Origin: Bryobacteraceae bacterium
GTDB taxonomy: Bacteria > Acidobacteriota > Terriglobia > Bryobacterales > Bryobacteraceae
Assembly (NCBI GenBank): GCA_025056865.1
Contig: JANWVO010000053.1
Coordinates: forward strand, 1-51,876
Length of the DNA stretch: 51,876 nt
Direction: 5' to 3'
Shown: in pieces, positions 25,290-29,152 of the stretch
Position numbering within the stretch: the stretch's first letter is position 1
Layout: every line of letters begins with the position of its first letter
Made by a program: the position numbers and the translations under genes
The notes under the pieces: generated by a model
Databases searched by the model: none
What the model was told of the DNA's origin: nothing
The model's input: only the letters and a program-made list of their open reading frames with translations

Positions 25290-26363
25290 ATGAACAGCGT
25301 GTTCCGGGCGGCTGCGTGGGCGGCGGCGCTTGTGCTGTTGGCGGAGCTGGCCGCCGGCGCCTTCCAGCGGAGGAAGAAGCAGAAGGAAGAAGAGGAAATC
25401 ACCCAGACGCTGGAGCTGCCTCCCGAGCCTCCCGCCTCGGTCTTTGCCGATCCATCCCGGCTCGGCTTCCTCCACGCGCCGCTGTCGGCCCGCGGGCTGC
25501 TCTCCCAGCAGACCCGCGACGCCATCCGGGCGCTGCTACAGAACGCGCGCGGGGCGCGCTTCGTGCGCATCCGCGCCTACGTGGCCGGAACCGGCGATCT
25601 GCGCCGCGTGCCGATGCTCGTCTCCGAGATCTTCTCCGAACGCAAGCTGCCGCTGCCAGTGGTGACCGTCGTCCAGGTGGGGGCGCTGCCGCTGGAGGGA
25701 GCGCAGGTGCAGCTTGAGGCGGTCGTCGAACAGCGCAAGCCCGCAGGGGCGGGCATCGTCCTTGCGGCCGTGTCTTCGCAGACGCCCGGAGACACCTTCA
25801 ACCGGCTGTCGCGGACCCTCCGCGACGCCGGCGCCCGGCCGGAAGCCCTTGCGTCGCTCGTCTGCGGCGTCACCAGTCCGGACCTGCTCGACCCGGTGCG
25901 CCGCGAGGCGGCCCAGGCCTTCCCCCGCACCCTGCTGCTCGCCTTCCAGGTGCAGCGGCTGCCGGCGGAGCCCGCCGTCGCCTGTGAAGCGGCAGCGCCG
26001 CTCGGCGGCGCGGTGCCGGGCGGCGTGCGGCGGCTGGACTCGGCCGTCGCGCTCAGCGTGCCGCGCGTCGTCTTCACGGGCGCGCAGCTTGCCTTCCGCT
26101 ACGAGGAAAGCGACGCCCGCCTGGCATTCCAGCGGCTGGAACGCACATTGCAGCAGGCGGGGGCGTCGCTGAAGTCCGCCGTCATCCTGAACATCTATCC
26201 GTTGTCGCGCCAGTTGGCCGAGATGGCCAGCCGGGTCCGCGCCGAGTTCATTGACGCCGCGAACCCGCCTGCCGGGCTCGTGGTTCCCTACGAGGGCCTG
26301 CCGTCCATGGACGGCGCATTCGCCCTCGAAGCGGTCGCCCTGCCTGCGCAGGGCACGCAGTGA
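25290..26363 (+). CDS. Exported protein with two Rid (YjgF/YER057c)-like domains
   Basis: 357 residues. Signal peptide (~1-24), then a charged, Lys/Glu-rich stretch ([22 protein letters not shown], ~27-48). Two Rid-like domains follow: ~50-145 ([28 protein letters not shown] ... [37 protein letters not shown]) and ~240-352 ([47 protein letters not shown] ... FALEAVAL). A similar central segment (~150-235) may be a third degenerate copy. RidA proteins hydrolyse reactive enamines in the cytoplasm using an Arg; the exported tandem form here is unexplained. 38 bp upstream of kdgK and possibly cotranscribed. Confidence 0.72.
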
Positions 26364-26401: not shown

Positions 26402-27436
26402 ATGTCCCAGGCTCCTGTGGTGACGTTTGGCGAAATCATGTTGCGGCTTGCGCCGCCGGGCTTTGAACGTCTGCTCATGTCGCCGGCGCTCGTCGCCACC
26501 TTCGGCGGCGGCGAAGCCAACGTCGCCGTCTCGGTGGCCAACTTCGGCCACCCGGCGCGCTACGTGACCGTCCTGCCCGACAATCCCATCACGGACGCAT
26601 TCATCTACCAGATGCGCGGCTTCGGCATCGACACGCGCTTCATCAGGCGCGCCCCGGGCCGCTTCGGCATCTACTTCGTCGAGCCGGGCGCCAACCAGCG
26701 CCCGTCCAAAGTGGTCTACGACCGAGCGCATTCCTCCATCTCGATGGCGAAGCCCGGCGACCTCGACTGGAAGGCGATCTTTGCCGACGCCGGCTGGTTC
26801 CACATCACCGGCATCACGCCGGCGCTGTCGCAGTCGGCCGCGGACCTCGCGCTGGAGGCCGTGAAAACGGCGCGCGGGATGGGCGTGCCCGTCTCCTGCG
26901 ACCTGAACTACCGCAAGAACCTCTGGAAGTACGGCAAGAGCGCGCAGGAGGTGATGACGGAGATCGTCCGCTACGTCGACTACGCCATCGCCAACGAAGA
27001 AGACTGCCAGAAGTCGCTCGGCATCCAGATTGACGTCGACGTCACTTCCGGCAAACTCGACCAGCAGCAGTACCGGATGCTGGCCGAGAAGGTCCTGGCG
27101 GCCTACCCGAACCTGAAGCTGATCGCCATCACCCTGCGCGAGAGCTACTCGGCCTCGCACAACGGCTGGTCGGCCTGCCTGCACGACCGCAATGAGTTCC
27201 TGGTGAGCCGCCATTACGACATCACCCACATCGTGGACCGCGTGGGCGGCGGCGACGCTTTCGCCGGAGGCCTCATTTACGGCATCCTGAACCTGCCTTC
27301 CCTGCGCGACGCGCTCGAATTCGCCGTCGCCGCCTCCTGCCTGAAGCACTCCGTGCCCGGGGATTTCAACCGGTTCTCGCGCGCCGAGGTGGAAGCGCTG
27401 CTCAGGGAAGGCGGCAGCGGCCGCGTGCAACGCTGA
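26402..27436 (+). CDS. kdgK: 2-keto-3-deoxygluconate kinase-like PfkB sugar kinase
   Basis: 344 residues of the PfkB/ribokinase family. Sugar-binding [15 protein letters not shown] (~38-52), the KDG-kinase-like [28 protein letters not shown] segment, and the phosphate-binding/catalytic [17 protein letters not shown] motif with catalytic Asp. Phosphorylates 2-keto-3-deoxygluconate (KDG) to KDPG. A GAGGTG ribosome site precedes ATG 26402. A gap of 79 bp containing a 10-bp hairpin separates it from the aldolase gene. The operon partner, a DHDPS/KDG-type aldolase, fits a 2-keto-3-deoxy-sugar pathway. Confidence 0.85.
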
Positions 27437-27446
27437 GCCGCTGACA

Positions 27447-27474
27447 GGCGGCCCCGCCCCGCCGCGGGGCCGCC
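27447..27474. repeat. Strong GC hairpin between kdgK and the aldolase gene
   Basis: GGCGGCCCCG (27447-27456) and CGGGGCCGCC (27465-27474) form a perfect 10-bp stem with an 8-nt loop. No T-run follows, so it is more likely an intercistronic mRNA-processing or stability element than a terminator. Confidence 0.6.
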
Positions 27475-27515
27475 GGCTTGCCCGCCCGGCCGGCAAAGTG
27501 AAACGATAGTACGCA

Positions 27516-28532
27516 ATGGGCGTGCGGCTCCAGGGCATCTTCACGCCGATGCTCGTCCCGCTCGACGAGCGCGACCGCATCGACGAGGCCGAGCTGCGCC
27601 GCTTCATCCGCTGGCTCATCAGCAAAGGCATCCACGGCCTGTATCCGAACGGCTCCACCGGCGAGTTCACCCGCCTCACCGCCGAAGAGCGCCGCCTCAT
27701 CGTGAAGATCACCTGCGAGGAGGCCGCGGGCCGCGTGCCCGTGCTGGCCGGAGCGGCGGAAGCCAACTTGCGCGAGACGATCGCCGCCTGCGAGCTGTAT
27801 CACCGCTACGGCGCGCGCGCCGTGGCCATCGTCTCCCCCATCTATTACCGGCTCAGCCCGGAGTCCGTCTACGCCTACTTCCGCGAGATCGCGCTGCATT
27901 CGCCCATCGACGTCACCCTCTACAACATCCCGCTGTTCGCCAGCCCGATCGACCTCAACACCATACGGCGGCTGAGCGAACTGGAGCGCATCGCCGGCAT
28001 CAAGGACTCTTCCGGAGACGTGGCCTTCATGATGCGGATGATCGCCGCCATCCGTCCGCACCGGCCGGACTTCACCTTCCTGACCGGGTGGGACTGCGTG
28101 CTCGTGCCGATGATGCTCGCCGGCGCCGACGGCGGCACCAATGCGGCCTCCAACGTGGTGCCGGAGCTCATGCGGAAGCTGTATGACCTGTTCCGCGCCG
28201 GGCAGCTCGAGGAGGCGATGAAACTCCAGTTCCGCATCCTCGAGCTGTTCGACCTGATGCTGAACCACTTCGAATTTCCTGACGGCTTCCGCGCCGGCGC
28301 CGAGATGCGCGGCTTCCGCTTCGGCCGCGGCCGCCAGCCGCAGAGCGCTTCCCAGCGCGCCGACCGCGCCGCGCTCAAGCGCATGCTCCAGTGCCTGCTG
28401 GCCGGCTCCGGCATCGTCGAGCCGCCCGAGTCCGGCTGCGCCCCGCGCACCGGCGACGCGGCGCGCGACCGCATCGAGCAGGTGGTCGTCGAGGTGATGG
28501 AAGTGCTGCGCCGCAGGGGCATGATCGGATGA
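27516..28532 (+). CDS. DHDPS/NAL-family aldolase, probable KDG/KDPG aldolase, with BMC-targeting-like C-terminal extension
   Basis: 338 residues; the family is usually ~290-300. The barrel has GSTGEF (47-51), catalytic Tyr136 (TLYNIP) and Schiff-base Lys163 (GIKDSSGD). Next to a KDG kinase the likely reaction is retro-aldol cleavage of KDG or KDPG to pyruvate plus glyceraldehyde or its phosphate. The normal C-terminal helix ends about residue 300; a Pro/Gly linker (301-315) and a helix 317-334 follow, with Ile320, Val323/324, Val327, Val330 and Leu331 on one face and charged residues on the other. That is the format of bacterial-microcompartment encapsulation peptides. Stop overlaps the BMC-T start (ATGA). 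Substrate is inferred. Confidence 0.83.
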
Positions 28533-29152
28533 ACGCGCTCGGGCTGATCGAGATCGCCGGCTGGAGCCCGTCGATGGTGGTGCTCGACGCGATGGAGAAA
28601 AGCGCCGGCGTCGCGTTGTTTCAGGTGGAGCTGAACGATCTGGCCGGCGCGATGATGAAAATCACGGGGCCGCTCGGAGCCGTGCGCGCGGCCATGGAAA
28701 CGGGCAGGCGGCTGGCCGAAGAGATGCGCGTCGCCTGCGTCACCGACATCATCCCCAATCCCGAGCCGCGCGGACGCCGCGGCTGGCAGGGAGGAAAAGA
28801 ATACAACCCGCTCATCGAGCAGGACGTCGTGCATACGCCCGATGAGCGTTACCGGGAGGCCAGAGTGAAGGGGCAGGCGCCATTCGCCGTTGGACTGATC
28901 GAAACGCAGGGTTTCACCGCCGTCTTCGAGGCCATCGACACGGCCTGCAAGACGGCCGATGTCGAGGTGCTCGCCAGAGAAAAGCTCGGCGGCGGCTACA
29001 TCACTGTCGTCATCAAGGGCGACGTCGCCGCCGTGCGCGCCGCCATTGAGGCGGGCAAGGCGAAGGTGGACGGCCTCGGCAGGCTCATCGCCGCCCACGT
29101 CATTCCGAGCCCCACCGAAGCCGTGCTGTCGCTGTTGCCGAAGCAGCCGTGA
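28529..29152 (+). CDS. Tandem-domain bacterial microcompartment shell protein (BMC-T)
   Basis: 207 residues containing two BMC domains: ~3-80 ([26 protein letters not shown] ... [19 protein letters not shown]) and ~118-205 ([59 protein letters not shown]), joined by a ~37-residue insert (81-117). Such proteins form pseudohexameric trimers in the shell of metabolosomes. The second domain keeps the KLGGG pore-loop region; in the first it is degenerate (NDLAGAM). Translation is coupled to the aldolase gene by an ATGA overlap. No BMC-H, BMC-P or aldehyde dehydrogenase lies in this window, so the rest of the shell must be encoded elsewhere or be absent. Confidence 0.92.

Follow-up and report, generated by a model that had tools for sequence, protein, structure and literature searches.

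An aldolase of the DHDPS family (ALD) and a BMC-T shell protein form a two-gene unit in the genome of a Bryobacteraceae bacterium (GCA_025056865.1). With a probability of about 0.7, this pair is a satellite locus belonging to a PVM-like metabolosome with scattered genes, in which an encapsulated ALD would cleave a 2-keto-3-deoxy sugar acid inside the shell. Good evidence from sequence suggests the encapsulation of ALD. An earlier sequence-only reading of this DNA had linked a sugar-acid-type aldolase to a microcompartment, and that link was borne out: the pair is conserved, and the genome carries shell and aldehyde dehydrogenase (AldDH) genes.

The aldolase and shell-protein pair

The window is the whole stretch of DNA analysed (51,876 nucleotides) and is one whole contig, C15 of 61, of a 4.18-Mb genome rated 100% complete. 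Pfam matches and coordinates confirmed that a kinase, ALD, and a two-domain BMC protein are consecutive on the plus strand and that the last two reading frames share an ATGA overlap, as read from the sequence earlier (Table 1). Each PF00936 domain of BMC-T matches profile positions 1–75 of 75, the standard, non-permuted arrangement. The absence of BMC-H, BMC-P, and dehydrogenase genes from the window was likewise confirmed. Contig C15 has no PF00936 or PF03319 match beyond the two domains of this BMC-T, and a search of the window with the two AldDHs of the genome gave no match at E 1e-3.

Table 1. Positions of the features in the window.
Feature	Coordinates	Strand	Evidence and remarks
PfkB-family kinase (KDG kinase-like)	26402..27436	+	PF00294, 3.9e-28; judged outside the unit
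GC-rich stem-loop in the kinase/ALD gap	27447..27474	+	
ALD, DHDPS-family (class I, Schiff-base) aldolase, 338 aa	27516..28532	+	PF00701, 7.3e-63, residues 5–292
Linker of ALD, about residues 293–318	28392..28469	+	pLDDT <50 at residues 312–317; column counts, 81 sequences
Candidate encapsulation peptide, terminal amphipathic helix, about ALD residues 319–338	28470..28529	+	
BMC-T shell protein, 207 aa	28529..29152	+	Two non-permuted PF00936 domains, 2.7e-40

Close relatives were compared in a set of 101 genomes, this one included; all conservation and co-occurrence counts are raw and uncorrected for relatedness. Full-length BMC-T orthologues (≥58% identity) were found in 18 of the 101, and ALD orthologues (≥62% identity) in exactly those 18. 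The remaining ALD matches at E 1e-40 among the 101 genomes are at most 36% identical. ALD lies directly 5′ of BMC-T in 16 of the 17 other genomes, with BMC-T orthologues 56–92% identical. The 17th is broken at contig ends: one contig carries BMC-T from base 153 onward, and another carries ALD, which stops 262 bases short of that contig's end. The closest relatives of this BMC-T thus sit in the same pair and not in unrelated classical loci. Neighbours beyond the pair change from locus to locus.

A scan of genome contigs with an ALD alignment retrieved at least 493 relatives, and the best 80 were examined. BMC-T is directly downstream of ALD in 63 of these (two by partial matches, L121 and L146) and further downstream in one; 12 have no BMC-T in the flank, and four have too little flank. 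By record title, the best 80 comprise 50 Acidobacteriota, 19 Planctomycetota, 9 Verrucomicrobiota, 1 Omnitrophota, and 1 "Arcobacter". A midpoint-rooted ALD tree places Acidobacteriota apart from the others, save one Acidobacteriota-titled row and the "Arcobacter" row. The latter (L090, DYJN01000009.1) groups with the genus of the window, its ALD is 91% identical, and its title is probably wrong. Pairwise distances of ALD and BMC-T correlate with r 0.75 (61 loci with near-full BMC-T matches; relatedness uncorrected). When gene families were clustered at the 80 loci, ALD numbered 77, BMC-T 59, and the next family 8. A second, diverged DHDPS-family gene is found near the pair at 4 of the 80 loci (L118:5759–6619, which has the Pfam match, and three others).

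Shell genes were found in 19 of 20 ALD-bearing genomes searched, and in 11 of the 12 genomes without BMC-T in the ALD flank. Only 2 of these 12 have a BMC-T match at E 1e-25. At the same threshold, matches were found in 3 of 16 genomes (the 12, that of locus L165, and three of the four with short flanks), one being that of L165 and one only 36% identical; the three short-flank genomes gave none. ALD therefore occurs without this BMC-T, mostly outside Acidobacteriota.

Shell and cargo genes on other contigs

PF00936 matches were found on contigs C3, C8, C15, and C47. C3 encodes a BMC-H followed by three consecutive BMC-P (PF03319). C8 encodes a second BMC-T adjoining a Nuo51/SLBB/RnfC/4Fe-4S protein (L012:10378–12236); these are presumably PduT-like and PduS-like, the latter an iron-sulphur flavoprotein, and perhaps serve electron transfer across the shell. 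C47 encodes a BMC-H followed by a 607-aa AldDH (L013:10817–12640). This AldDH has about 160 residues beyond its dehydrogenase part, spanned by the matches of many relatives. A second AldDH lies beside a class II aldolase on C34 (L087:9311–11866), a contig with no PF00936 or PF03319 match. Both AldDHs are of the acylating type. The C34 AldDH has a helix-like N-terminus, and the C34 class II aldolase is extended at both ends. A PduL (PF06130) search of the genome gave no match.

The sequence-only reading had left two options, a split locus or a solitary role for BMC-T, and had proposed a genome-wide search for BMC-H and BMC-P. That search found BMC-H and three BMC-P, and other contigs also carry a second BMC-T and the AldDHs. 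The split locus therefore holds, and a solitary role is unlikely because other shell genes are present. A satellite BMC locus was defined as a shell gene, alone or accompanied by an enzyme, that lies away from the genome's other shell genes. Shell genes lie on four separate contigs here, and G001 and G004, two congeners each assembled as a single contig, likewise have BMC matches far apart; the compartment is therefore scattered, and the window holds one satellite. Scattering as an assembly artefact was considered and is unlikely, given loci well inside contigs and their distances in the two congeners.

Main shell loci were read in 8 of the 20 ALD-bearing genomes, picked for clustered BMC hits. 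All eight carry PduL, AckA, BMC-H, BMC-P, and an AldDH 49–62% identical to that of C34. Seven carry a class II aldolase, and the contig of the eighth ends before it. This gene content is the PVM composition, and PVM compartments are described in PMC8857213 as handling lactaldehyde. Among the relatives, a class II aldolase (E 1e-60) is present in 10 of 18 with ALD versus 3 of 83 without (p 5e-7, not phylogeny-corrected), and in 5 of 13 versus 3 of 83 when the genus of the window is excluded (p 0.0009, also not phylogeny-corrected). The genome itself has a PVM-like class II aldolase, so both kinds of aldolase may serve one system.

The pair might instead serve a compartment built around the C47 dehydrogenase and not the PVM-like one, a reading compatible with encapsulation of ALD. 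A C47-type AldDH is present in 17 of the 18 ALD genomes (a 42% match in G032, within an 875-aa frame, was left out), and 8 of the 18 have no class II aldolase. However, 53 further relatives have a C47-type AldDH without ALD, and ALD is more strongly associated with the class II aldolase. Assignment to the C47-type compartment is less probable, and a PVM-like compartment is preferred.

Known systems resemble this one in part. The genome shares with PVM a class II aldolase, a PVM-locus-like AldDH, BMC-H, and three BMC-P (C34, C3, and C47). It differs in that the genes are on several contigs instead of one main locus, no PduL was found, and the window contributes a further, class I aldolase that has a BMC-T of its own. 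The ACI and FRAG types (PMC8217296) share several BMC-P, scattered shell genes, an AldDH apart from BMC-P, and a class II aldolase, but the descriptions consulted there mention no DHDPS-family aldolase. The arrangement of the shell genes, spread over several sites and including a BMC-P triplet, is FRAG-like. ACI is described there as a main locus, mostly from subdivisions 4 and 6; here the class II aldolase, BMC-P triplet, and BMC-H are not together (aldolase on C34, BMC-P on C3). The satellite EUT modules of HO, SPU3, and SPU6, as described in PMC8217296, also combine satellite signature enzymes with a BMC-T and are thought to widen substrate range, but they consist of EutABC and an EutL-type BMC-Tsp where ALD and a non-permuted BMC-T are found here.

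The kinase and the substrate

The sequence-only reading placed the kinase, ALD, and BMC-T in one KDG/KDPG operon, with glyceraldehyde or its phosphate as the enclosed product. The three genes are adjacent on one strand, and the kinase resembles KDG kinases: its best NCBIfam models are KDG-kinase types, with every score below cut-off. One Phycisphaera locus (L233/L246, contig C44 of G119) has an altronate/galactarate dehydratase directly 5′ of ALD and UxaE further along, a clue to glyceraldehyde. The kinase and ALD are separated by 79 bases that contain an 11-pair GC-rich stem (MFE z −2.24; 5 of 200 shuffles equally stable) and no terminator-like site on the plus strand. With this gap and stem, a three-gene operon is not demonstrated. 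No tblastn match to the kinase was found at the 17 orthologous loci of relatives (flanks of about 7 kb, some shorter) or at the 80 wider ALD loci. Neighbourhood conservation, proposed as a check, thus held for the ALD/BMC-T adjacency and not for the kinase, and the three-gene operon was rejected because relatives do not keep the kinase next to ALD and BMC-T. Glyceraldehyde 3-phosphate, moreover, should need no shell. The three-gene operon is improbable; the unit is ALD and BMC-T, and the kinase is a bystander. A 357-aa protein with two L-PSP/RidA-like stretches is encoded 5′ of the kinase (25290–26363).

Cleavage of KDG/KDPG to glyceraldehyde, the step proposed from the sequence, is one candidate reaction, and lactaldehyde fits about equally well. 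Lactaldehyde is tentatively placed first as the ALD product, at slightly less than even odds, and glyceraldehyde is a possible but somewhat less probable product. Neighbouring genes are mostly uninformative as substrate clues. Lactaldehyde is suggested by locus L107, where an SDR, a lactonase nearest to L-fucono-1,5-lactonase, and an SSF symporter precede ALD, and by L126, where a GH106 rhamnosidase is 5′ of ALD. Locus L165 has sugar-oxidation neighbours near ALD. The Phycisphaera region also holds clues to lactaldehyde: a lactonase of the L107 type, an AKR nearest to L-galactose dehydrogenases, and an RbsD/FucU protein. The dehydratase, ALD, BMC-T, lactonase, AKR, RbsD/FucU protein, and UxaE lie there within about 20 kb on both strands. 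UxaE and the kinase of the window favour KDG as substrate.

Lactonase scores at L107 and L233/L246 stay under the cut-off of the fuconolactonase model, and none of the matches in the 101 genomes pass it. At E 1e-30, this model has no match in the genome of the window or in its four congeners, and fuconolactonase-type genes are rarer in relatives with ALD (3 of 18) than in those without (44 of 83). An L-fuconate route in this genome is therefore unsupported.

The aldolase, its tail, and a proposed role

The nearest neighbours of ALD by profile and fold are of the DapA, YagE, and NanA types. ALD shares with the DHDPS/NAL superfamily (DapA, NanA, YagE, and archaeal KDG aldolase) the fold, the Schiff-base lysine, and the tyrosine. 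The two residues, Tyr136 and Lys163, had been recognized from the sequence and are invariant in 18 aligned ALD orthologues. ALD differs from the superfamily in its C-terminal tail, in Phe141, and in scoring below every listed NCBIfam cut-off; for the archaeal KDG/KDPG aldolase model NF040954, it scores 133 bits against a cut-off of 390. The arginine that follows the YN-P motif of DapA is substrate-binding. Phe141 occupies this position in all 18 sequences, and a DapA-type arginine is not present in ALD. Family and residues indicate that ALD is likely a pyruvate-releasing aldolase.

The PF00701 match stops at residue 292, leaving a C-terminal extension that the sequence-only reading overlooked. 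AlphaFold gives low confidence at residues 312–317 and predicts a helix at 319–333. In 81 aligned sequences, tail positions 320, 323, 327, 328, and 331 are hydrophobic in 96–100%, position 324 in 81%, and position 325 in 63%, while positions 319, 321, 322, 326, 329, 332, and 333 are hydrophobic in only 0–23%. The linker and amphipathic-helix tail are present in all 80 homologues examined, the best-scoring ones, which were retrieved with scan patterns in the ALD core and not the tail. Column conservation averages 0.81 over the core, 0.64 over the linker, and 0.59 over the helix. Since identity is no better conserved in the helix than in the linker, only the hydrophobic pattern marks the helix.

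In PMC12339742, encapsulation peptides are described as amphipathic helices at a protein terminus, typically 18 residues long and borne on poorly conserved, disordered linkers. ALD has the terminal amphipathic helix of about this length. Its linker has low pLDDT yet retains conserved residues: P304 (81 of 81), G307 (80 of 81), C308 (80 of 81), and R311 (74 of 81). Such conservation at window positions 28425–28454 (ALD residues 304–313) is unexpected in a disordered linker. An encapsulation-peptide motif was derived from the N-termini of AldDH and PduL proteins in other genomes; about 5 of 15 training rows fit badly. Among 130 proteins ranked, the N-terminus of the C34 AldDH came first and the ALD tail second. 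The best placement of the motif is the tail in only 10 of 17 ALD orthologues, that of the window included, and the result is supportive but not decisive. The hydrophobic moment of the ALD tail helix ranks 5th of 111, which by itself is weak support for a targeting helix; the tail of the C34 class II aldolase has a moment of 0.42, the control mean. Together, sequence and predicted structure make the ALD tail a probable shell-docking encapsulation peptide.

Least probable is a cytosolic ALD of another reaction (DapA or sialic-acid-lyase like) with a structural tail and a historical link to BMC-T: DapA and NanA are among its best PDB and NCBIfam neighbours, the linker keeps its Pro, Gly-Cys, and Arg, and some genomes have ALD without this BMC-T, but Phe141, scores under all listed cut-offs, the anatomy of the tail, and shell genes in nearly all ALD genomes searched argue against it.

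Under the preferred reading, that of an encapsulated ALD in a PVM-like metabolosome, ALD would enter the shell via its C-terminal helix and would split a 2-keto-3-deoxy sugar acid there, yielding pyruvate and a small hydroxyaldehyde. Candidate routes lead from 2-keto-3-deoxy-L-fuconate or -rhamnonate to L-lactaldehyde, or from KDG to glyceraldehyde. The aldehyde dehydrogenase of the compartment would then form an acyl-CoA, and BMC-T may supply a pore fit for entry of the acidic substrate or exit of pyruvate. If ALD and BMC-T belong to a PVM-like compartment, the pair would therefore give it a non-phosphorylating route in, beside the class II sugar-phosphate aldolase that otherwise feeds it.

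Among the papers that full-text literature searches listed, none describes the ALD/BMC-T pairing, though supplements may list it. The terms pfam00701 and dihydrodipicolinate are absent from the main text of the 2021 catalogue (PMC8217296), and pfam00701, pf00701, and DHDPS from that of the 2014 taxonomy (PMC4207490). Papers found for microcompartment together with dihydrodipicolinate or 2-keto-3-deoxy, PMC13274419 among them, were not on point by title and abstract. Many new metabolosome types in the 2021 catalogue, including the scattered FRAG types, have an AldDH but no obvious aldehyde-making enzyme (PMC8217296).

The pair may, tentatively, represent a class of microcompartment input not described so far: an encapsulated class I aldolase that releases pyruvate and in most cases comes with a shell protein of its own. 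It would occur in Acidobacteriota, Planctomycetota, Verrucomicrobiota, and relatives. Such an input would connect the oxidative, non-phosphorylating breakdown of deoxyhexoses or uronic acids to PVM-like compartments and could be the missing aldehyde source for some scattered compartments that have no signature enzyme. The tailed aldolase and its shell protein are a concrete candidate aldehyde source in several phyla. If true, the tail would provide a naturally occurring targeting tag for a well-studied aldolase fold, and the pair points to another way of supplying aldehydes to protein microcompartments.
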